Positions 11,685 through 59,530 of a DNA stretch of 64,000 bases are shown here, piece after piece (position 1 is the first letter of the stretch; the number at the start of each line of letters is the position of its first letter). A program made the position numbers and the translations under genes. Under the pieces are notes generated by a model that was not told where the DNA came from, ran no database searches, and worked only from the letters and a program-made list of their open reading frames with translations. This DNA is from Toxonevra muliebris (taxonomy: Eukaryota > Arthropoda > Insecta > Diptera > Pallopteridae): NCBI GenBank assembly GCA_963691655.1, contig OY829326.1:101431340-101495339 (forward strand), written 5' to 3'.

Positions 11685-12479
11685 ATGGAAGCTGCAAATA
11701 GAAAATTGATTGTGAACAAATTTATTGAAAATCCGTCGTGGTCTGGTTCAAAGATTGCGAAAGTGTTAAATATCTCCAAAAGAATGTAAAGTTATAAAAC
11801 GATATAAAGAAACTCTTAGTGTTGAAAGAGCTAAAAAAGTTGTGAACAAAACGGGAACCACCAACCTAAAATTAAAGGCAAAGATCTTGAGGTCCATCAA
11901 AAGCAATCCCGGACTATCGGATAGCGATCGTGCCAAAAAATTCAATACCAGCAAAAGTACTGCTAGACGAATACGCATAAAAGCTGGGCTAAAATGCTAT
12001 CGTGCTATAAAATATCCAAATAGAACAGACAAACAGAATTTGCTGGCCAAAAAACGTGTTCGTCTTCTTTATAATAATATTTTGACCGATTTCAATGGGT
12101 GCATTATTGTGGATGACGAATCATACGTAAAATTTGATCTTAAACAGCTTCCAAGTCAAAAATTTTATATGGCAACGAATCGTGGTAATGTACCCTCAAA
12201 ATTCAAGTACATAAAAATGGATAAATTTGCAAAGAAAGCAATGGTGTGGCAGGCTATTTGCAGCTGTGGTCTCAAATCCAGGGCATTTGTGACATCCTCT
12301 TCTATGACGTCTGATATTTACATCAAAGATTGCCTACTACTACTCTAACCATGGATTGGTATCAGACAAATAAAGTAGATGTAGTGCCCAAATATATGAA
12401 TCCACCCAATTGCCCCCAGCTTCGACCGATCAAAAAATACTGGGCTATTACAAAATATAAGTTGAAGAAAAATGCAGGT
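11685..12479 (+). pseudogene. Tc1/mariner DD37E-type transposase relic
   Basis: From the ATG at 11685 the relic reads an N-terminal helix-turn-helix (MEAANRKLIVNKFIENPSWS...). After a 1-base frameshift near 11788 it gives a second helix-turn-helix (PGLSDSDRAKKFNTSKSTAR) and then the catalytic block around CIIVDDESYVKF (first Asp). A deletion near 12335-12350 removes the block that should hold the second Asp, and the frame shifts. The C-terminal block reads MNPPNCPQLRPIKKYWA. In relatives the position after RPI is the catalytic Glu; here it is Lys. By comparison with remembered relatives the spacing is D-37-E, the type described in mosquitoes. The copy is dead. Its tail is cut off by the MITE at 12483. 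Confidence 0.75.
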
Positions 12480-17396: not shown

Positions 17397-17769
17397 ATAA
17401 CGAATATCTAAGTATTATAAATAAGATATAAATAGTAGAGAACTTTACTCTAAACTTACTTCAGATTTCGGACCACACAAAGAAAAATCATCATTCGAGA
17501 ATTCCCGTTGGTTCGGTTTAGATGCAAAACAACAACAAATTTACGAATTGTTTCTGTTTTACATATCGTCATCTAAAATCCAAAAAGCCGTAACTATGCA
17601 AATTTTCAAAATCGACTTTTTGAATAATTATGATGCACTTGCCCAAACTACATTTTTCTGCAAAATTGTAAACAAAATTGAATCTTTTTAAGTAAATATT
17701 TCAACAAAAATAAGTGTTCAATGAAAATACTTGAAAACAAATTCCTTGTAATTCTCGATAACATCACAA

Positions 17770-17818
17770 AGATCACTGATGAGGAACCGTGGAGGGTTCC
17801 AAAACGGCCGTATGATTT
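17770..17818 (+). ncRNA. decayed hammerhead ribozyme motif (G12 lost)
   Basis: The order AGATCA, CTGATGA, GGAACC, loop GTGGAG, GGTTCC, AAA, ACGGCCGT, A, TGATTT reproduces the hammerhead layout of the 33-36 kb array. Stem I pairs AGATCA with TGATTT (one G-U). Stem II is 6 bp, GGAACC with GGTTCC; the array has GGAAT with ATTCC, so the change is compensatory. The invariant GAA is AAA here (position 17801), replacing G12, the expected general base. Activity should therefore be lost. Surrounding sequence shows little similarity to the 483-bp monomer. Confidence 0.65.
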
Positions 17819-17971
17819 GACTACTCTCATTTCGACAAAACGGACGTTTCAACAAGCCTGATAAACAAATCTTTAACTGTTAAGTTAGCAATGAAGAAAA
17901 AAGTCAAACTATGAAATATAAACAATTAGGTTTCAGTTTCATATTTTTTAATAATAATATGTAACAATGGC

Positions 17972-20574: not shown

Positions 20575-21410
20575 TTATCAAATAAAAAAAATTTAATTTA
20601 TCAAACAAAAATGAAATTTATTAAATAGAATTCTTTCTTAACTGAAATAAAATTTATTGAATTGGTAGCGATTTGATTAATCGAATAATAAAAAATTCGA
20701 TTAAACAAATAATCAGATATTCAATTTACCGTAAAATTAGAAATTTGGTTAATCGAATAGCCAGAAATTTAATTTATCAAATAGTCAAAAATTTAGTTAC
20801 ACATAAAATAAAAAATTTAAGCTATCGAGTAATTGGAAATTCGATTTATCAAAAATCAAACACTCAATTAATCGAATATTCAGAAATTCGATTAATCGTA
20901 AAATCAAAAATTGGATGAATTGAATAATCAAAAAATTTACTTATCAAACAATAAAAATCAGAAATTAGATTAATGGAGTAATTAAAAATTCAATCAATTG
21001 AATAATTAAAAATTCAATCAATTGAATAATTAAAAATTCAATCAATTGAATAATTAAAAATTCAATCATTTAAATACTAAGAAATTCTATTAAACAAATA
21101 ATCAAGAGTTCAATTCATCGAATAATCACAAATTCAATTAATCGAACAACCAGAAATCAAATAATCGAATGATCAAAATTTTAATTTATTGAATAATCAA
21201 TAATAAGAAATCCAATTAATCGAAAAACCACAAATTTAATTAATCAAATAATCAGAAAATTCAATCAATCTAAAAATCAAAAATTCACATTATAGAATAA
21301 TTAGAAATTCAATTAATCAAATAATTAAAAATTCAATCCAGACATTCGATTAATCAAGTAATCAAAATTTATTTTTATCAAAAAATCAGATATTTGATTT
21401 ATTAATGAAC
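20575..21410. repeat. degenerate minisatellite of ATTAATCGAATAATCA units
   Basis: Units of roughly 20-25 bp with consensus close to AATTCGATTAATCGAATAA repeat throughout. At about 20990-21065 a 24-bp unit containing ATTCAATCAATTGAATAATT is repeated almost perfectly three to four times. It lies a few hundred bases beyond the Hecw stop codon. No coding potential; the frame 20673-20918 is the repeat read through. Confidence 0.7.
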
Positions 21411-21917: not shown

Positions 21918-22854
21918 TTATTCTATACCAAACGTATTCGTTTCTTCAACCGCAAGTAAAAGTTTCTCATACAGCAGCTCCGGTGTTGGATATGGCGGTA
22001 AATCCAAACGATTGAAGCATGTATGCGCACGTGGCAATGCATTCGGTTTACCCCATTTTTCAATGCAAAAACGACGCGGTCCTGTTGAACCGCGCAGTGC
22101 CGAGAAACCTTCATACGGTATACTCGATGTACCGGTAACGAATTGCAACAAACGCAACCGCTGCTCATTGGTGAATTTCTCGATGACTTGCCAAAACCAA
22201 ATAATCACCTGATGGTTGTCATGATAACCCGAACGATATTCAGTATTGAGACGCCAATCATTTGTATCGATTTCCGCTGTACCCGCTATAACCAGCTCAA
22301 GCTCACGCGCATCAAATACCGAGACGAGCCGCGAATCGACAACTTCATAAAAGCCACGCACCAATGATTCCGTCTGCTCTTGCACGCCACGCTCTAAACG
22401 CCATTTAATCATACGCTCTAAATATTCTTTTTTATTCTTCTCATTCACAATGACATTTTTGCCGCCCGGCTTAAGTTCACGTTCGACCACACGCCCCAGC
22501 AGCTCTTCCGTCACACAAAAGGTAAGCCCCAAATCAATACCACTGCCGATGTCATTATCGCGTATCCATTGCAGCGATTGATGAAATTCATTATCAAGCG
22601 ATTCTAAATCACTGAGCGCCACGGGCAAACGCAGTAGAGCTTTGTAAAAAGGGCGCGTAAAAAATGCATCTAAAAGATATTGATGCACGAGTGCCAAGCC
22701 CAGAACGCGTCCACTGAAGCGAAACCAATCGTGGCAGTTGTCAACAAAAGCAGACAGTGGCGAGACTTGTACGGTGTATGTGTCATTGGCCGAATATTCA
22801 AAGAGACCATAGTATGGATTGAAAAGTTCACGCGAGAGCAAAAAGAAGAATTCG
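21918..22854 (-). CDS. Hecw: Hecw last coding exon: most of the HECT domain and stop
   Basis: This exon encodes the bulk of the HECT domain of a HECW-type E3 ubiquitin ligase, which forms a thioester with ubiquitin and passes it to substrates. The acceptor is AATAG at 22855-22859 and the exon starts CGAATTC. The first base completes Arg (CG|C) in [20 protein letters not shown]. Visible landmarks include [53 protein letters not shown] [28 protein letters not shown], the C-lobe [17 protein letters not shown] and the catalytic motif [15 protein letters not shown], whose Cys codon is 22017-22019, 33 residues from the C-terminus. It ends NTFGIE-stop at 21918-21920. All expected HECT landmarks are intact, so the gene appears functional. 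The family is established; the symbol is by orthology with Drosophila Hecw (CG42797). Confidence 0.95.
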
Positions 22855-23142
22855 CTATTGCATGAAAATGAAAGCAAAAGGGAAAACAATTTAAATTGAA
22901 ATTTCTTTAATTTATGAAAATGATTTGCCACTCACCGTGATGGTCCACCATAATCCAGGCCCTCTTCGGTATCCCACAGCACTGCCAGACGGCCACGTTG
23001 TAGATCTTTCTTATTGGCAGACATAATGCGACGAAAAGCATCCTCAAGCAGATGGGTGCGACGTATATGTAATCTGTGATTAAAAAAAGGAGTGATGATC
23101 ATTATAGTAAAAACCAGCATCATGTATGATAAAAACACTTAC
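22855..23142 (-). other. two short Hecw introns (22855-22935, 23074-23142)
   Basis: Introns of 81 and 69 bp with GTGAGT and GTAAGT donors and CAG/TAG acceptors, typical of flies. The coordinates given span both introns and the 22936-23073 exon listed separately. Nothing else is seen in them. Confidence 0.85.
22936..23073 (-). CDS. Hecw: Hecw exon: start of the HECT domain
   Basis: 46 codons' worth of sequence between the acceptor CACAG (ending 23074) and the donor GTGAGT (22935-22930). It encodes [20 protein letters not shown] then [20 protein letters not shown] and YGGPSR. This is the first part of the HECT N-lobe, where IxRxHLLEDAF and EEGLDYxGxSREF are family signatures. It begins after the AA of a split Lys codon and ends in CG of a split Arg codon, in phase with both neighbours. 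The following intron is 81 bp. Confidence 0.95.
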
Positions 23143-25089: not shown

Positions 25090-25560
25090 TGGGTGAAATC
25101 GGCTTGCCACGCCCACCCACCATACAAGTGAATTTTTCAAAACGTAATATCAGCTGAAATATTGAAGTTAATTAAATCAAACTAAACACAGTTATTTATA
25201 TTGGCATATAAAACATTTGGTATAAAAATTAACCAATTTTCTCAGTAACCACGCCCACCTTCTATATATGTGAAATTTTCAAAGCGTGATATCAGGAAAA
25301 ATACTGAAGTAAATTCAATACAATTTGACACACTTTTTTATATTAGCATAGGTAATATTTGGTACTAAAATCAACCAAATTCCGTAGTAACCACGCCCAC
25401 CCCCCATATAAGTGAAATTTTCAAAGCGAGATATCGGGCAAAATACTGAAGTAAATGAAACTAAACACACTTTTTTGTATTAGCATATAAAACATTTAGT
25501 ATGAAAATCAACCAAATTCCTCGGTAACCACGCCCACCTACCATACAAGTGAAATATGTA
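25090..25560. repeat. tandem repeat of about 140 bp, 3-4 copies
   Basis: The word CCACGCCCACC occurs at 25107, 25249, 25391 and 25528, a spacing of 142, 142 and 137. Each is followed by TATAAGTGAAATTTTCAAAG-like sequence, AATACTGAAGTAAAT, ACACACTTTTTT and ATTAACCAA/ATCAACCAAATTCC. Copies differ by substitutions and small gaps. No coding frame. Confidence 0.8.
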
Positions 25561-31156: not shown

Positions 31157-32441
31157 CAGCGTGGGCCCTTATAACTGTCACACCTAATTTTTCGAAGCAA
31201 AAAAAAATAGAAAGCATTTTAGCGGGAAACTTATTTTTCTATTTCTTTAAATTGTTAGCATGCATTATGTGGGCTGAAGTTCAAATCTTTCCCCTTTCAT
31301 TTTTTCAAAAGCTTCAAACGTTTTGGGAAACCAGCACAGGCGGCACGGACGACTTCTTCTGGGATTTCGTCCCAAATCTTTTGCAAACGGCGTTTGAATT
31401 GCTCCAATTTCATGTTTTTAATGTTTTTTAATTTATCCCCCATACACAAAAATCTAATGGATTCAAATCTGGAGAAGATAGAGACCATTCATCCACCGGA
31501 ATAAAACACGGAATATTGTCCTTGCACCAACGCTGATCTATACCTGCTTTGTGAGCCGGGGCAGAGTCTTGCTGGAAACAATATGGTTCATTGCCAAAAA
31601 GCTTGGATGCATGAGGAGAAAAATGGTTAACAAGGACTTCGTCTAAATAGTATTGGGCATTGATTTTGACGCCCTTGTCAATAAAAATGAGGAGAAGCTT
31701 GCCTTTTGTGGATACGGCTCCCCAAACCATGACGGATGTGGTGTTTTGATACCTTTCAATGGCTTTGTTATCGGCGGGAATATCGCACATCCTCGGTGCA
31801 TATACGCGGTCATTCTGTGGGTTGTGGCTTTTTTACAGTACGAATAACTTCTCATCAGAAAACACAATATCACAAAGTGCGGGCCGCTGAAGGAGTAGAG
31901 CGCTTCTTTCTCTCCGCATTTTCTTTTGACGCTCTGTAAGACCATGTACTCTTTTCTTTTTGAATGCTTTCATCTTTAAATTTTTTTTTATAATGTTTCG
32001 GATAGTTTTGCGGCTCACATTCAGGTCCTTGGCTAGTTGCTTTCCTGAAACTGCACAATTTCTTCTTATTCGCTCACGCACAGTCTTTACTAGACCAGAA
32101 GTTCTAACGCTGATTTTTCGGCCAGGTTTCTTGGATACTTCAGCAGTTCAAGTTGCTTTATATTGAGCCTCAGTGCGTTGTACAAATCTGCGGTTAAAAC
32201 CTAGCTTCTTCAGCAACTTAACAATTTCGTGTTTTTTTTTTTGCCTTGCAAATGCAATTTCTGTATAAGCTCTCTTTTCGCTTTCATCGCTCACAAACTT
32301 TTAAAACGAAATGATCAATCAAATGACAAGGTCACACAATCAATGTAAGAATTAAAATGTGTAACGGTAAAAAGTCTAAACATGTTTGGTTTGACATGGG
32401 GGCGCTTCAAAAAAGTGCGACAGTTATTAGGGCCCACGCTG
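31157..32441 (-). mobile_element. maT-type (DD37D) Tc1/mariner element, near full length
   Basis: Terminal repeats are CAGCGTGGGCCCTTATAACT and, from the right, CAGCGTGGGCCCTAATAACT, continuing as GTC(A/G)CAC, with TA duplications at 31155-31156 and 32442-32443. Length is 1285 bp, near the usual 1.3 kb. A single transposase lies inside on the minus strand with lesions. The target was a SINE: tRNA-like sequence lies immediately on both sides. Confidence 0.88.
31298..32296 (-). pseudogene. DD37D (maT) transposase, frameshifted
   Basis: Reading the minus strand gives, in order, SDESEKRAYTEIAFARQ near the N-terminus and the paired helix-turn-helix (CAVSGKQLAKDLNVSRKTIR). The catalytic blocks follow: DIVFSDEKLF (first Asp), SVMVWGAVSTKGK, CFQQDSAPAHKA (second Asp) and SSPDLNPLDFCVWG (third Asp, 37 residues after the second). 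The C-terminal segment is KLEQFKRRLQKIWDEIPEEV. Lesions: an in-frame stop before TAEVSKKPGR, a frameshift after FVL near 31835 and another near the C-terminal block at about 31440. The catalytic residues are present, so decay is moderate. Cut-and-paste transposition is the expected role of the intact family. Confidence 0.88.
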
Positions 32442-32992: not shown

Positions 32993-33471
32993 TTTATACA
33001 AAAGTAATATAATCATAACTGAATATACAACATAAAAACACAGCACTAGCAACAAGGCCATCGGCTGATCAGCCACTTTAATTACATAATAGGTGTATAG
33101 ATATGAAGTGCGGTTTTAACTAACAGATGGCACAACTATTATGTATTTTTTGTGTCGAGGATAATTAATATGGCGTTTTGGAGAGTAGACATTTGTTAAT
33201 AAGATACATTACGTTATAGGTTGCGATTGCGCAAACCAAATAATTTGTTCACTTCAAAAATGTCGAATTTGCTCAAAGCTGATAGCGTTCTCTTTTCTTG
33301 ACAAAATGTTAAATTCATGATAGTTTTTTAGGAGACTATGAAAATTAAATCTAGAGGTTAATTTTCAAAGTCATGACTTAAGTTCATGTTAATTTCGTTA
33401 TTTGAAGTTATATATAAACAGGTTAATGAACAAATGTAGTCATCACAACAACAATGTATATAGAGACGGGC

Positions 33472-33520
33472 AAATCAGACGGCCGTTTCGGAATCCGCCA
33501 CAATTCCTCATCAGTGATCT
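33472..33520 (-). ncRNA. hammerhead ribozyme, array copy 1
   Basis: Minus strand: AGATCA (stem I), CTGATGA (core), GGAAT/ATTCC (stem II, 5 bp) around loop TGTGGCGG, GAA (core), ACGGCCGT (self-complementary stem III), C (H17), TGATTT (stem I). Stem I has six pairs, one G-U. All invariant core bases are present. The predicted cut lies between 33478 and 33477. Stem III is a palindrome with almost no loop, as in known dimeric satellite hammerheads, so two neighbouring copies could pair. Confidence 0.85.
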
Positions 33521-33954
33521 TAGTGATAGTTCTTAATCTTTCAATATCCCATATAAGCTACTAATATTTGAAATCATAACCCAGAATTATGGATTTGATT
33601 CCAAATATCTTCACTGAATAGTGATATTGAAAGAAACTACCACTACCGTTCTATACACTTATGTTGTTGTTTTTTTCCCATCGTAGCTAGTCTGCATAAC
33701 AGTTCGTTATTTGAAAGTCTAGTACATGGGAGAGTGTGTGTGTGTGAGAAAATGATTCTAGGTGTCATTTTTTCTGAACGGTCCCCATTCGATCAGTTCA
33801 TGATAGTTTTTTAGGAGACTATGAAAATTAAATCTAGAGGTTAATTTTCAAAGTCATGACTTAAGTTCATGTTAATTTCGTTATTTGAAGTTATATATAA
33901 ACAGGTTAATGAACAAATGTAGTCATCACAACAACAATGTATATAGAGACGGGC

Positions 33955-34003
33955 AAATCAGACGGCCGTTTCGGAATCCGCCACAATTCCTCATCAGTGA
34001 TCT
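33955..34003 (-). ncRNA. hammerhead ribozyme, array copy 2
   Basis: Same 49-base motif as copy 1, 483 bp on, with no base change seen. Core CTGATGA...GAA and the GTC cut triplet are intact. Confidence 0.85.
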
Positions 34004-34437
34004 TAGTGATAGTTCTTAATCTTTCAATATCCCATATAAGCTACTAATATTTGAAATCATAACCCAGAATTATGGATTTGATTCCAAATATCTTCACTGA
34101 ATAGTGATATTGAAAGAAACTACCACTACCGTTCTATACACTTATGTTGTTGTTTTTTTCCCATCGTAGCTAGTCTGCATAACAGTTCGTTATTTGAAAG
34201 TCTAGTACATGGGAGAGTGTGTGTGTGTGAGAAAATGATTCTAGGTGTCATTTTTTCTGAACGGTCCCCATTCGATCAGTTCATGATAGTTTTTTAGGAG
34301 ACTATGAAAATTAAATCTAGAGGTTAATTTTCAAAGTCATGACTTAAGTTCATGTTAATTTCGTTATTTGAAGTTATATATAAACAGGTTAATGAACAAA
34401 TGTAGTCATCACAACAACAATGTATATAGAGACGGGC

Positions 34438-34486
34438 AAATCAGACGGCCGTTTCGGAATCCGCCACAATTCCTCATCAGTGATCT
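34438..34486 (-). ncRNA. hammerhead ribozyme, array copy 3
   Basis: Identical motif one period further on; core, 5-bp stem II and palindromic stem III are intact. Confidence 0.85.
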
Positions 34487-34920
34487 TAGTGATAGTTCTT
34501 AATCTTTCAATATCCCATATAAGCTACTAATATTTGAAATCATAACCCAGAATTATGGATTTGATTCCAAATATCTTCACTGAATAGTGATATTGAAAGA
34601 AACTACCACTACCGTTCTATACACTTATGTTGTTGTTTTTTTCCCATCGTAGCTAGTCTGCATAACAGTTCGTTATTTGAAAGTCTAGTACATGGGAGAG
34701 TGTGTGTGTGTGAGAAAATGATTCTAGGTGTCATTTTTTCTGAACGGTCCCCATTCGATCAGTTCATGATAGTTTTTTAGGAGACTATGAAAATTAAATC
34801 TAGAGGTTAATTTTCAAAGTCATGACTTAAGTTCATGTTAATTTCGTTATTTGAAGTTATATATAAACAGGTTAATGAACAAATGTAGTCATCACAACAA
34901 CAATGTATATAGAGACGGGC

Positions 34921-34969
34921 AAATCAGACGGCCGTTTCGGAATCCGCCACAATTCCTCATCAGTGATCT
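34921..34969 (-). ncRNA. hammerhead ribozyme, array copy 4
   Basis: Identical motif one period further on; no change in core or stems. Confidence 0.85.
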
Positions 34970-35403
34970 TAGTGATAGTTCTTAATCTTTCAATATCCCA
35001 TATAAGCTACTAATATTTGAAATCATAACCCAGAATTATGGATTTGATTCCAAATATCTTCACTGAATAGTGATATTGAAAGAAACTACCACTACCGTTC
35101 TATACACTTATGTTGTTGTTTTTTTCCCATCGTAGCTAGTCTGCATAACAGTTCGTTATTTGAAAGTCTAGTACATGGGAGAGTGTGTGTGTGTGAGAAA
35201 ATGATTCTAGGTGTCATTTTTTCTGAACGGTCCCCATTCGATCAGTTCATGATAGTTTTTTAGGAGACTATGAAAATTAAATCTAGAGGTTAATTTTCAA
35301 AGTCATGACTTAAGTTCATGTTAATTTCGTTATTTGAAGTTATATATAAACAGGTTAATGAACAAATGTAGTCATCACAACAACAATGTATATAGAGACG
35401 GGC

Positions 35404-35452
35404 AAATCAGACGGCCGTTTCGGAATCCGCCACAATTCCTCATCAGTGATCT
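35404..35452 (-). ncRNA. hammerhead ribozyme, array copy 5
   Basis: Identical motif one period further on; no change in core or stems. Confidence 0.85.
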
Positions 35453-35886
35453 TAGTGATAGTTCTTAATCTTTCAATATCCCATATAAGCTACTAATATT
35501 TGAAATCATAACCCAGAATTATGGATTTGATTCCAAATATCTTCACTGAATAGTGATATTGAAAGAAACTACCACTACCGTTCTATACACTTATGTTGTT
35601 GTTTTTTTCCCATCGTAGCTAGTCTGCATAACAGTTCGTTATTTGAAAGTCTAGTACATGGGAGAGTGTGTGTGTGTGAGAAAATGATTCTAGGTGTCAT
35701 TTTTTCTGAACGGTCCCCATTCGATCAGTTCATGATAGTTTTTTAGGAGACTATGAAAATTAAATCTAGAGGTTAATTTTCAAAGTCATGACTTAAGTTC
35801 ATGTTAATTTCGTTATTTGAAGTTATATATAAACAGGTTAATGAACAAATGTAGTCATCACAACAACAATGTATATAGAGACGGGC

Positions 35887-35935
35887 AAATCAGACGGCCG
35901 TTTCGGAATCCGCCACAATTCCTCATCAGTGATCT
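35887..35935 (-). ncRNA. hammerhead ribozyme, array copy 6 (truncated monomer)
   Basis: The ribozyme motif is complete although its monomer ends early at about 36077, where the inverted segment begins. Confidence 0.85.
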
Positions 35936-36114
35936 TAGTGATAGTTCTTAATCTTTCAATATCCCATATAAGCTACTAATATTTGAAATCATAACCCAGA
36001 ATTATGGATTTGATTCCAAATATCTTCACTGAATAGTGATATTGAAAGAAACTACCACTACCGTTCTATACACTTATACACACTCTACTCTTATACACAC
36101 TCTACATACTCTAT

Positions 36115-36440
36115 ACACACTCTCCCATGTACTAGACTTTCAAATAACGAACTGTTATGCAGACTAGCTACGATGGGAAAAAAACAACAACATAAGTGTA
36201 TAGAACGGTAGTGGTAGTTTCTTTCAATATCACTATTCAGTGAAGATATTTGGAATCAAATCCGTAATTCTGGGTTATGATTTCAAATATTAGTAGCTTA
36301 TATAGGATATTGAAAGATTAAGAACTATCACTAAGATCACTGATGAGGAATTGTGGCGGATTCCGAAACGGCCGTCTGATTTGCCCGTCTCTATATACAT
36401 TGTTGTTGTGATGACTACATTTGTTCATTAACCTGTTTAT
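36115..36440 (+). repeat. inverted partial monomer ending the ribozyme array
   Basis: Reverse complement of about 326 bp of the monomer, from CACACTCTCCCATGTACTAG to GTTCATTAACCTGTTTAT, followed by the 13-bp target duplication. At least two substitutions separate it from the direct copies (CCGTAATTC against CCATAATTC; TATAGGATATTG against TATGGGATATTG). It creates a head-to-head palindrome with copy 6. Confidence 0.85.
36334..36382 (+). ncRNA. hammerhead ribozyme, inverted copy 7
   Basis: Plus-strand motif with positions: stem I 36334-36339 and 36377-36382; CTGATGA 36340-36346; stem II 36347-36351 with 36360-36364; GAA 36365-36367; stem III 36368-36375; C at 36376, after which cutting is predicted. 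No core change. Confidence 0.85.
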
Positions 36441-36453
36441 AAAATGTTAAATT

Positions 36454-38511
36454 GTTTTATGTTGCCTGCAACCTTGCCAAATGTTGCCATTTTCGTGCAA
36501 GAAAAGAATATAAAAATGCTACCCTGTTATGCTTAAACTCCAAATATGTATTTATAAAAAATACCAACAACGTATCCTTAAAATCTGTTTGCCAAACACA
36601 ATTACAAACAGCAAGATGTCGTCAGGTTTCGGAACGGTTCTAGAACGCTCAAGGGACCCACAGGATGCACGAAAGACCATTTTTCAAAGAAAAGATTGAA
36701 AAAAGCAGTAAAATAATCTAGCAGATTATAGAATAAACTAAGTTTTTCACAAATGTAAGTAACTTGTCTGATTTACGTGGGGCGATAGTTGGAAAAACTA
36801 GATATTATTGAGAATGTTGATGTTGTTAAATTTGAGTATTTGCCTCATCTGTCAGATGGATTAAATTTAAAACAACAACAACAACAGATTGGTTGAAAGT
36901 TTTTAATTTAAAATTCATACAAGTTCATCCTTCCTACAAAAACACAATCGAAAGGACAACATCAACAAACAAAACAAACTTGCTCTTTGACTTTCTTGTT
37001 CTCGTAATATCCTTCCTTTTCAACTAATACTCTCTCATTTAAGTACAATTGTACTTTGTAATAAATAAATTATGTGCTTTTGGCTACTCGGCTGCGTTTA
37101 CGAGTTACGCACCGATGATTTCTCTCACGTTTTTTTTTTTTTTTTGGTTAAACGTTATTGCAATGGAGAACAAAGAACAGATGAGTAATATTAATAAAAT
37201 GTAAAAGTGTAAATAGTGCTTAAAAATTTACAGTGACTCACAGAACCGATCACATAAAGAAGCATTTTTGGGCCACGAAAAATAGCCAAAAATTTAACAG
37301 GAACAGATGAACAGAAAATGAAATGCAAATTTTTGAAATCCGATAACATCTTTAGGTTCCAAAAGAATTCTGAAAGCCACGAAATTTCGACCATAAATTC
37401 AGATTTTTTAAAATTTTTTGGGCAACAATTTTTACAAACAATGCAAAAAAAAAAAGTTTCTAAATCGGATAAGTAATTTTCAAATTTTAGTTTTCTAAGT
37501 AGTGATTCATATTTTCTAAGCATAAGAATCACAACCTCATTTCTAGTTTTTTCACATCAGAACTCTGAAAAATTTAGAAAATATCCTTTAGTATCCTATT
37601 TTCACAAATGTATTCAGCATTAACAGATTCTTTCTACAACTTTAAAGGTAACATACTTAAATAAAAATCTTCACCGAAAAATTTGGGGCCTACCACCTTC
37701 CCAACGGAGTCTACATAATTAACAAAAAAAAAAACATGTATAATTTAATATATTAAAATAAATTACAATATAAAAATATCAAAAAAAGTAACCCGAAAAA
37801 AAGTAAAAACAGAGTAGTTATCCTTATAAATAGAGTGACCAACTTTACCGATTTTACCGAGTGATTTCAATAACAAAATTCTGATTTTAGGTTAAACAAA
37901 TTACACAATCAGCCCTTTTCTAAATAATGCCATAATGAGACGCCCGGAAAAATATGTTCCTTTTCTTTCTTTTTCTATAGGAATACGAAGGAAAGAAACA
38001 AATTCTCCCGGGAGTTTCATTATTATTTATAATAGGGCTGAGTAAAAGAAAAACTTTATGTTTTTTCTAGGTCTAGGGACGCGTGGTTGGTGGATTTGAT
38101 AGGGGTTTTTTCCGCTACAAAATTATGTGTACATGAAATTGCTCAAAATAATATTTTTTTAGTTTTTTGTTTATTATTATCAACCAATGTTTCATTCACT
38201 ATATTCGTAGCACCGTGCGACAACACTTTTAACACATGAGAAAATCCATAACATACAAAACTAGAGGCCAAATATTATGAAACTGCATACTCAGATTTTC
38301 CTAAAACATTAGAATTATTTTTACAAATGACTTTGAAAAAATAAAGAGAGTAATCTTTTCAATTTACAACATTTCTTTTATATTACGCAAATATTATTTT
38401 TCAATTATATATTCATAAAAAATTTAAATTTTAAAAATAGCTTGAAGTCTTAAGTATCTATAGATTTAATAAATTTTATCGTACATACATTTTTTAAATA
38501 CAGAAAATAAA
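36454..38511. other. intronic DNA, no gene recognised
   Basis: AT-rich sequence. The minus-strand frame 37191-37532 (113 codons, Phe/Cys/Lys-rich) has no recognised similarity. A short segment near 37950-38010 carries CTATAGGAATACGAAGGAAA, also seen diverged near 2000. Confidence 0.35.
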
Positions 38512-39704: not shown

Positions 39705-40420
39705 ATAAAAAGGGAGCATGACGTTATTGAGTATGCCATTATATCCTCAATGCGGTGGATAGCACATACACCGTAGTAGAAGAAAAGATTATATTTCGCT
39801 AAACAGCACCTGGATTGGCTAGAACACAAATGGCGCAATATTCTTTGGTCGGATGAACTACCGGTCAATTTATTTAACACTGATCGTGGAACACATTTTA
39901 TACGACAATCTTTAAATACAGCTCACCATAATTAATATACCATAAAAGCAGTCAAGCACCAAGGAGGATATATCATGGCATGGGTATGTTTCTCCTACTA
40001 TGGTGTAGGTGCTATTCACCGTATTGGAGGTATAATAAGAGCAGATGACTATGTTGGTATACTAAATAACGAGATGCTTCTCTTTGTGGAGCAAAACATG
40101 CCACTTCGATGGGTGTTTCAGCAAGATAATGATCCGAAATGCTCATCGAAGTGTGCTAAACAATGGTTTGAAGAGAAACACCTCAATCTTTCATGCTGGC
40201 GTTCCAGCATGGCGTTCAATCACCAGACCTCAAAGTGATAGACAATGTACGGTTGGAAGTGAAAGTAGCCTTAAGAGGTAAGAACCCATTAAACATTAAT
40301 CAGCTTTAGTTATTTGTAAAGGGTCTATGGGAAGTTATACCGGTAAGCACGTGCCAGAAACTGCTTGATTCTATGCTGCGGCATTTTTTGGCTGTAATCA
40401 GCAATAAAGGATATTAAACA
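39705..40420 (+). pseudogene. Tc1-like (DD34E) transposase relic (plus)
   Basis: Frames read KQHLDWLEHKWRNILWSDEL (first Asp block), TDRGTHFIRQSLNTAHH, VKHQGGYIMAWVCFSYYGVG, GAIHRIGGII, EQNMPLRWVFQQDNDPKCSS (second Asp), a frameshifted PAW(R)SITRPQS/SPDLKVIDNV (third block, with Asp where Glu is usual), then CQKLLDSMLRHFLAVISNKG at the C-terminus. The order is that of Tc1 elements. Stops and frameshifts make it non-functional. Confidence 0.8.
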
Positions 40421-44650: not shown

Positions 44651-46140
44651 TTGCTGATTGGTTATTCATTTAGAAAAGTCTTTTTAGAAGTCAAGGGAAT
44701 TCAATCTTTTTTTGATGTCATGAGAATGCAAATCTCATAACTTCAAAATCTAACTGCTTTGAAGTCACTTGGAGTCATTTGAAGCCACTTGAATATACTT
44801 GGAGTCATTTGAAGTGGCATGCAGTCACTTGGAGTCAACTGGGGTCAATTGGGATTTTGAAGTCAATTGGACTCACTTGAAGTCAATTGGAGTTAGCCCA
44901 GTAATTTATGATTTGGACGAAGTAAAGGTTTATTTATGCAATTGATAACTTAATTTGACTGCAAGTGACACCAATTGATTTCAAGTGACGCCAATTGACT
45001 TCAAGTGAGTCCTCTGAATTTTTAAAAAATCGGAAAAACAAAATTTGAAGCCTTAATGCTTTCTAATAGTTTCATAAGTATGAAAAATACCTTTATTGCA
45101 GTCTTAAAATTGTAAAACAATTTTCTCGACTCTTGAAGTGATTGCTTGCACATAGAAAATATGAGTTTTAAAACTTCAAATGCGTTTTCCTCGAATTACC
45201 GTTTTTCAAATCGGTATATATAGCAGAGCAGTAAAAGAATGTATTCAATTTAATTGCAATACCTTGAAGTTACAGTGCCAGAATAAAGCCAGTTAGAAGC
45301 CTTTTTTAGAGTTGCTGATTTATTATTCATTTAGAAGCCTTTTTAGGAGTCAAGAGAATGCAATCTTTTTTTGAAGTCATGAAGTCTTATAACTTCAAAA
45401 TCATGACAGCTTTAAAGTCACTTGGAGTTACTTGAAGCCACTTAAACATACTTGGAGTCAGTTGAAGTGCTATGCAATCAGTTGCAGTCAACTGGGGTTA
45501 ATTGGGAATTTGAAGTCAATTGGAGTCACTTAAAGTCAGTTGGAGTGTTGGGAGTTTGAAATCAATTGGAGTCACTTGAAGTCAGTTGGAGTGTTAATTG
45601 GGGATTTGAAGTCAATTGGAGTTAGCTCAATTAATAAAATAGGATTAATTGGTTAAAAAGTGGAAATATTAAATAACATATATTAAAATTGAATTCACAT
45701 TCCATTTGACTTCAAGTGACTCCAATTAAGTTCAAGTGACTCCAATTGACTTCAAGTGACTCCAATTGACTTCAAAACGAATTCACTTGGAGTGACTTCA
45801 AGTGATTCCAATTGACTTTAAGTCCCCAAATAACTTTAAATAACTCCAAATCCTAATTGACTCTATAAGACTTCAAGTGACTCCAATTGACTTCAAATCC
45901 CAATTGACTCTAAGAGACTTCAAGTGACTCTAAGTGACTTCGAATTCCTATTGACTCCAATTAGCTTTAAGTGACTTCCATTGACTTCAGTTGACTCCAA
46001 GTGACCAGTCATGATTTTTAAGTCATAAGATTTACATTCCCCTGACTCCAAAAAAAAATTGCATTCCCTTGACTTCTACAAAGACTTTTCTAAATGAATA
46101 ACCGATCGGCGACTCCAAAGAAGACTTCTAACCACATTCT
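44650..46140. repeat. (AGTCACTTGG / AGTCAATTGG)n element, palindromic
   Basis: Three related modules each begin TTATTCATTTAGAA, then AAGTC...GAATGCAATCTTTTTTTGA, and run into strings of GAAGTCACTTGGAGTCAATT units (from about 44650, from about 45310, and inverted at 45690-46120 as CTTCAAGTGACTCCAATTGA). The middle at about 45640-45690 is the symmetry point. Another copy lies at 59200-59530. The unit is close to 10-12 bp and varied. Both ends of the family look conserved, so this seems to be a mobile family with an internal minisatellite. Confidence 0.7.
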
Positions 46141-57651: not shown

Positions 57652-58549
57652 CCTTGATCAAAAAGTTCCCGGAATTTATTCAGAAAACTAAAAATACAAG
57701 TTTATTCAACTAAATCTATATTGTCCCCTTCAAAGTAATCCCCATCGACTGCAACACACTTATGCCAGTGCTTGATCCAATCCTCGAAACATTTTTTATA
57801 TTCGGTTTTCGGTATGTCCATCAGTGTTTCCTGCGATTTTTCCATTACTTCCTCTCGGCTGCTGAAACGCGTTCCCCGTAATGGTTTTTTAATTCGATTG
57901 AACAGAAAGAAGTCACAGGGAGCCAAATCAGGTGAATTCGGTGGATGTTGCATTTTTCGTCAGAAAATTACGAATAATGATGGCACTGTGCGACGGTGCG
58001 TTATCATGATGCAAAATCCACGAGTTTTCTGTCCACAATTCTGGTCTCTTTCGGCGAATTGCTTCACGCAAACGCCTCATAACGCCCAAATAATACTCTC
58101 TGATGGTTAATTTGCGATTATTGACCGAAATTTATTTTACTTTATCAACGTTTTCGTAGGTTTTCGATGCCGATGGTCTGCCACTGCGTTCATCATCTTC
58201 GATTGACTCACGACTACTTCTGAACCGCAGGTGCCACTAGTAAACGACCGTTTTCTTTAGAAAATCGTTGCGGAAGCACTTTTCCAACATTTCCAACGTT
58301 CGCGCACCATTAAATCCGTTTTTTACGCAAAATTTAATACAATACGATTTAATAAAATTGTAAAAAATCGCCAACATACACAAAGATAGATGTACTCTTG
58401 GCTATGTAACTTTTGCAAATGTCAAGCTATGATGCTAAGATTTAGAGGGAATATCAACAACAGTTGTACCAACTTAACAAAAAAACAGAACTCAAATCGG
58501 AACGATGGGAGCTCTACACGTGGTTATTCCGGAAACTTTTTCATCAAGG
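57652..58549 (-). mobile_element. mariner element, internally deleted
   Basis: Ends CCTTGATCAAAAAGTTCCCG and (reverse complement) CCTTGATGAAAAAGTTTCCG are close inverted repeats. It is about 900 bp, shorter than the usual 1.3 kb, so much of the N-terminal half is lost. The transposase is on the minus strand. Confidence 0.75.
57702..58125 (-). pseudogene. mariner (DD34D) transposase relic
   Basis: The minus strand reads YYLGVMRRLREAIRRKRPEL, SWILHHDNAPSHSAIIIRNF (second Asp) and then, after a frameshift with a small deletion, MQHPPNSPDLAPCDFFLFNR (third Asp). The complete C-terminus KCVAVDGDYFEGDNIDLVE-stop follows. Spacing between the two Asp is about five residues short of 34, showing the deletion. 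The first catalytic block was not found. Non-functional. Confidence 0.85.
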
Positions 58550-59199: not shown

Positions 59200-59530
59200 A
59201 CGATTGGTTATTCATTTAGAAAAGTCAAGGGAATGCAATCTTTTTTTTTTAATCATGGGAATGAAAATTTTATGACTCTAAAATCATGACTGCTTTGAAG
59301 TCACTTAGAGCTACTTGATGCCACTTGTAGTCACATGCAGTCACTTGGAGTCAATTGGAATTTGAAGTCAATTGGGGTTTTAAAGTCAATTGGAGTCACT
59401 TGGAGTCAATTGCGAATTGAAGCCAATTGGAATCATTTGAAGTCATTTGGAGTCAATGGAGATTTTGAAGTCACTTGAAGTCAACTGGGATTTGAAGTTA
59501 AATCGAAACCAATTGTCTAAGCAATGCCAC
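59200..59530 (+). repeat. (AGTCACTTGG)n element, third copy
   Basis: Starts GATTGGTTATTCATTTAGAA, then GTCAAGGGAATGCAATCTTT and ATCATGACTGCTTTGAAGTC, followed by GTCACTTGGAGTCAATTGGA units. It is the same order as in the modules at 44650-46140. Confidence 0.65.

Follow-up and report, generated by a model that had tools for sequence, protein, structure and literature searches.

A probable non-LTR retrozyme with type I hammerhead motifs, inserted with a target-site duplication in the genome of the fly Toxonevra muliebris

The metazoan non-LTR retrozymes characterised in PMC7229834 consist of type I hammerhead motifs in short head-to-tail repeats that lack LTR-type borders, with units of about 150–450 bp, a GC content below 45–50%, non-coding and strongly self-paired unit RNAs and, when target duplications are present, duplications of more than 4 bp. 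For their spread, the same source proposes that tandem cDNA is made from a primed circle, LINEs or Penelope-like elements being the candidate enzymes, and it describes axolotl motifs whose short helix III is closed by a palindromic tetraloop. Further traits of the class are linear as well as circular RNAs of unit length, numerous dispersed copies, and Penelope-like elements that co-exist with them. The hammerhead repeats of Nematostella (PMC4918200) are also tandem and of type I, and are accompanied by a LINE-like long target duplication of 15 bp. Plant LTR retrozymes (PMC4918200, PMC7761336) are likewise non-coding hammerhead retroelements for which movement via RNA circles is presumed, but their ribozymes are of type III and located in LTRs, and they have a primer-binding site and 4-bp duplications. 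Hammerheads are also found in Penelope-like elements arranged in tandem or partial-tandem order, the canonical ones encoding a reverse transcriptase and a GIY-YIG endonuclease (PMC11167929). The fly hammerheads described in PMC7936874, from Drosophila pseudoobscura, the housefly and fruit flies, are of type III and have an architecture related to HDV-like agents. PMC7229834 mentions insects only in general, and its supplement may list insects; among the matches listed, no paper announced repeats with a type I hammerhead from a fly identified by name.

The locus described here lies in a 64-kb stretch of a Toxonevra muliebris contig, which was analysed as a whole and is referred to below as the window. 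With the metazoan non-LTR retrozymes it shares the head-to-tail type I motifs without LTR-type borders, a low GC content (0.337), a target duplication of 13 bp, and a non-coding unit whose RNA is strongly self-paired, as well as a helix III that is short and capped by a palindromic tetraloop, as in the axolotl. It differs from them in a slightly longer unit of 483 bp and in an inverted end part. The tandem type I order and the long duplication are also common to the Nematostella repeats, which differ in sequence and host; an inversion is not mentioned in the account given of them in PMC4918200. The type I order, the 13-bp duplication and the presence of 5.72 copies set the locus apart from plant LTR retrozymes, and its unit, unlike Penelope-like elements, contains no long reading frame. 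With the type III hammerheads of other flies the common trait is the fly host. The proposal of the earlier note, made on the same DNA, that this is a retrozyme-like element in a fly is supported by the 13-bp duplication, the low GC content, the absence of a long frame and the strong fold, all in line with the elements of PMC7229834. The element would join the already known metazoan non-LTR retrozymes; it is not claimed to be undescribed, and it appears unusually informative about integration.

The 13-bp repeat on both sides delimits positions 33316–36440 (3125 bp) as one insertion with a target-site duplication (Table 1). The duplication is perfect, identity stopping at 13 bp with no extension beyond; in the same test applied to random position pairs in the window, a match of at least 12 bp was obtained in 4 of 20000 cases. 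These borders agree with those of the array described in the earlier note, but the sequence between them proved to be a single insertion of 5.72 direct copies and an inverted partial copy. The exact 483-bp period reported there was borne out: shifting 33314–36077 (2764 bp) against itself by 483 gave zero mismatches, and Tandem Repeats Finder returned 100% matches and 0% indels on the array. The first two bases of the direct array also belong to the left target-site duplication, and the last base of the inverted copy to the right one. The GC content of the insertion is 0.337, versus 0.319 in the window. The inverted part carries substitutions at 2 of 327 positions, whereas the direct copies have 0 differences (chance probability about 0.011), and the two parts may therefore derive from different templates. 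This discrepancy may reflect a second template molecule; otherwise the direct copies may have been homogenised, or smoothed in assembly.

Table 1. Positions of the insertion, its predicted ribozymes and the diverged relative in the window
Feature	Position	Strand	Remarks
Target-site duplication, left copy	33303..33315	.	13 bp, AAAATGTTAAATT; identical to 36441-36453
Direct array	33314..36077	-	5.72 copies of 483-bp unit; RNA sense is the minus strand; exact period
Junction between direct and inverted parts	36078..36114	.	37 nt, short repeated pieces
Inverted partial copy	36115..36441	+	327 nt, 2 substitutions versus unit
Target-site duplication, right copy	36441..36453	.	13 bp
Predicted hammerhead 1	33471..33527	-	57-nt block; predicted cut after C at 33478
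Predicted hammerhead 2	33954..34010	-	57-nt block
Predicted hammerhead 3	34437..34493	-	57-nt block
Predicted hammerhead 4	34920..34976	-	57-nt block
Predicted hammerhead 5	35403..35459	-	57-nt block
Predicted hammerhead 6	35886..35942	-	57-nt block
Predicted hammerhead 7, inverted copy	36327..36383	+	predicted cut after 36376
Long imperfect hairpin adjoining stem I	33521..33650 (copy 1; one per full unit)	-	predicted fold
Solitary diverged hammerhead relative	17763..17819	+	50/57 identical
Upstream flank of solitary copy	17707..17755	+	weak colinear similarity to unit; 2/500 shuffles as good

Each copy has what looks like a complete type I hammerhead ribozyme, as predicted from the order of its parts: stem I, CTGATGA, stem II, GAA, ACGGCCGT, C and stem I. 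This order occurs seven times, six times on the minus strand and once on the plus strand; the count of seven complete motifs in the earlier note was therefore right, except that the seventh belongs to the inverted partial copy and not to the direct array. The characteristics of the type are present: a conserved core (CUGANGA...GAA...A/U pair), an H at the cut site, and three helices, with the motif open at helix I. Stem I comprises 6 bp, one G.U among them, and stem II 5 bp, or 6 bp if the terminal U.G is counted, while stem III has 2 bp and a GGCC loop and reaches 4 bp only without the loop, i.e., when paired with a second molecule. Since the copies are identical, the seven motifs represent one independent observation. 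A possible pairing of loop 1 with loop 2 (TCAC with GTGG) is kept in both distinct sequences, the unit and a diverged relative in the window, although the chance of this is about 0.19. The pattern CTGATGAN{10,24}GAAACGGCCGTC was matched 7 times in the window, whereas 100 dinucleotide shuffles gave a mean of 0.00. With a less strict structural descriptor, the window again had 7 matches, and 100 shuffles combined had 1.

Rfam searches at gathering thresholds returned 0 matches for the whole 64-kb window, and a permissive search up to E = 10 over 33200–36600 returned 31 rows with no hammerhead family among them. The best of these rows, SNORD24 (28.1 bits, threshold 41), which has a CTGATGA box, was attributed to chance, as were all 31. 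Run on 81 nt, the Hammerhead_1 model (RF00163) was matched from position 1 to 45 of 45 with a score of 23.8 bits, versus a curated threshold of 34; the E-value of 0.00032 becomes about 0.25 when rescaled by arithmetic to 64 kb. The lack of a covariance-model match above threshold had been set beforehand in the earlier note as grounds for rejecting its claim, and such a match is indeed absent. This sub-threshold score is counted against the retrozyme reading, but it was judged not decisive in view of the complete core, the unambiguous shuffle controls and the support that the motif receives from the relative.

The relative, a solitary copy at 17763–17819 that was overlooked in the earlier note, differs from the unit by 7 changes, two of which form a compensatory replacement of a stem II pair, U-A to C-G, and one further change turns U.G into C-G. 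All 18 proposed pairs, including 4 that make up a speculative pseudoknot, are standard in both distinct sequences (36/36 cells); the pair-count shuffle control, powerless with two distinct sequences, gave 245/500. In the solitary copy both G12 and C17, the base at the cut, are replaced by A. Since a hammerhead requires G12, the ribozyme of this copy is probably inactive. Similarity between the unit and the solitary copy peaks over the ribozyme; some is left upstream (Table 1), and none was detected in the downstream flank (337/500 shuffles as good). Rfam listed no hammerhead on this copy. A model built from the 2 distinct sequences (R1) reported eight sites in the window, the eight that match by construction, and no ninth. 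The open frame 17425–17688 (+), which immediately precedes the solitary ribozyme, was considered as a gene and rejected, as it had no relative among the proteins searched; its only Pfam match was Red1, with 20.8 bits versus a cut-off of 25. Three IMG/VR contigs matching a hammerhead pattern were dismissed as chance, since by eye 0 of the 3 pair in stem II and none matches R1, and two further hammerhead patterns had no match in IMG/VR. The single GTDB match, in an Anaerolineaceae bin, was likewise assigned to chance, the R1 match being partial (17.9 bits, positions 14–50) and lying outside stem I.

Folded as a circle, the 483-nt unit in the sense orientation has a predicted energy of −130.3 kcal/mol (z = −7.9), versus −86.9 ± 5.5 kcal/mol for a set of 200 dinucleotide shuffles. 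Of its bases 65% are paired, versus 58% in the shuffles; the paired fraction is lower than that of the examples in PMC4918200, in which more than 70% of the bases are paired. The antisense circle also folds stably (−118.1 kcal/mol), the z-score covering the sense circle only, and this is counted against the retrozyme reading. The predicted fold of lowest energy does not contain the hammerhead and is better by 5.5 kcal/mol for the 57-mer and the circle alike, and the partition function of the linear unit gives probabilities of 0.56–0.58 for helix II, 0.24–0.29 for helix I and 0.0 for helix III, in energies that leave the non-canonical contacts of the hammerhead core unscored. Amphibian motifs with a short helix III are more effective as dimers (PMC7229834), and the palindrome ACGGCCGT could be suited to the same mode of action. 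The longest open stretch in the unit is 71 codons, on the antisense strand, and no endless reading frame runs round the 483-nt circle, though 483 is a multiple of 3. A- and B-box patterns were found in neither orientation of the unit, while TATA-like words are present.

The window also contains an exon of a HECW2-type ubiquitin ligase at 21918–22931 (−), with the HECT ligase domain recognised by Pfam; among the best 120 of 698 matches, identity reaches 98% with HECW2 of Eupeodes corollae and 96% with the proteins of Drosophila simulans and Glossina austeni. These matches indicate a fly as host, and perhaps one close to the hoverflies. No reverse transcriptase was recognised by Pfam in the ten frames scanned of the 50 frames of at least 85 aa in the window. 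Remnants resembling mariner/Tc1 transposases were noticed by eye at 31833–32147 (−), 31428–31832 (−), 11770–12348 (+), 39936–40238 (+) and 57702–57959 (−), the first of which is the only one with Pfam support for a helix-turn-helix. Other repeats comprise a tandem repeat at 25107–25555 (142-bp units, 3.2 copies, 79% matches), a 24-bp minisatellite at 20676–21337 with about 27 copies, and related AGTCAATTGG / TTGAAGTCAC minisatellites at the distant sites 44759–46005 and 59295–59493, in both orientations.

Judging by its edges, the insertion appears to be a chromosomal copy of an RNA, and the template was possibly a small circle. With somewhat better than even confidence, we consider 33316–36440 to be a fly retrozyme of the metazoan non-LTR type, non-autonomous and inserted from circular RNA by a helper reverse transcriptase. 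Transcription of the minus strand would yield 483-nt units, the type I hammerhead of each unit would cut the transcript to unit-length RNAs, and these would be joined as circles. A reverse transcriptase from another retroelement, a LINE or a Penelope-like element, would copy the circle at a staggered chromosome break, with one target end priming inside the unit and synthesis completing no fewer than 5.7 rounds of the template. The other target end would prime another cDNA, leading to the inverted 5' part in a manner resembling twin priming; the two cDNAs would meet at the scrambled junction, and the staggered break would give rise to the 13-bp duplication. In LINE-1, twin priming leaves the 5' part inverted and its junction scrambled.

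In the sense orientation, the 3' end of the insert is located 162 nt beyond the predicted cut, and the array crosses six cut sites with no scar at any of them. The template cannot therefore have been a linear unit released by the ribozyme, but can have been either a circle or an uncut multimer. Our preference is for the circle, since the exact copies are accounted for by a single small template, and since a long transcript would be broken by its six ribozymes if these work. In the in vitro experiments of PMC11167929, cleavage and extension by a Penelope-like enzyme took place on both target strands, and reverse transcription started inside the RNA. A more specific scenario could be proposed, in which the locus preserves one integration event: target-primed reverse transcription ran in rolling-circle fashion on a self-cut RNA circle of 483 nt, and the opposite target strand served for a second priming; our confidence in it falls somewhat short of even. 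If true, the locus would capture the step from circle to chromosomal array that retrozyme models assume, with the target ends, the internal start and the cDNA junction all readable.

The continuity across the cut sites and the internal start would be explained equally well by retrozyme-like retrotransposition from another array, with its long multimeric transcript left uncut as the template and the ribozyme slow or blocked at that time. The absence of the hammerhead from the predicted lowest-energy fold agrees with such a multimer, and so does the behaviour of the Penelope-like enzyme, which in vitro used mainly unprocessed RNA (PMC11167929) and in this respect favours it. However, a 3-kb RNA with at least six intact hammerheads would have to stay uncut, and a source array of exactly identical copies would presumably be required; on the whole we regard this origin as unlikely, though it deserves serious consideration. 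The exact identity of the head-to-tail copies could also be expected of an ordinary hammerhead satellite DNA, spread and homogenised by recombination at the DNA level, in which the inversion and the flanking repeat would be incidental. Hammerhead satellites are known from newts, schistosomes and cave crickets (PMC4918200), but a perfect 13-bp duplication located precisely at both ends, and a lone short array whose inverted end points to one insertion event, make a satellite improbable here.

The terminal inversion of 327 nt is 99% complementary to each full copy, which one could ascribe to a foldback or rolling-circle transposon that moved as DNA carrying the repeats, or to an assembly artefact with identical copies and a flipped end; polishing of reads could account for the zero differences among the direct copies. 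On the other side, the outer ends have no terminal inverted repeat and fall at unrelated points of the unit, and the flanking duplication requires a real insertion, so that we hold either to be very improbable. Finally, the score below the Rfam threshold, and the fact that seven copies count once, would fit a hammerhead that is a chance look-alike in a repeat unrelated to self-cutting RNA. The shuffle controls speak against this, as does the solitary copy, which resembles the unit most closely over the ribozyme and retains the pairing there through a two-sided change, and a look-alike seems hardly credible.

For the favoured reading, insertion of a retrozyme from an RNA circle, the question addressed is by which route and with which enzyme animal retrozymes return from the RNA circle to the chromosome. 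As the target duplication is still present in the insertion, together with a start that does not coincide with the cut site and an inverted part that was apparently primed second, the proposal of PMC7229834 could be tested across the insertions of one fly genome. Under the same reading, an element with a type I hammerhead would be present in a fly; the named fly hammerheads in PMC7936874 are of type III.
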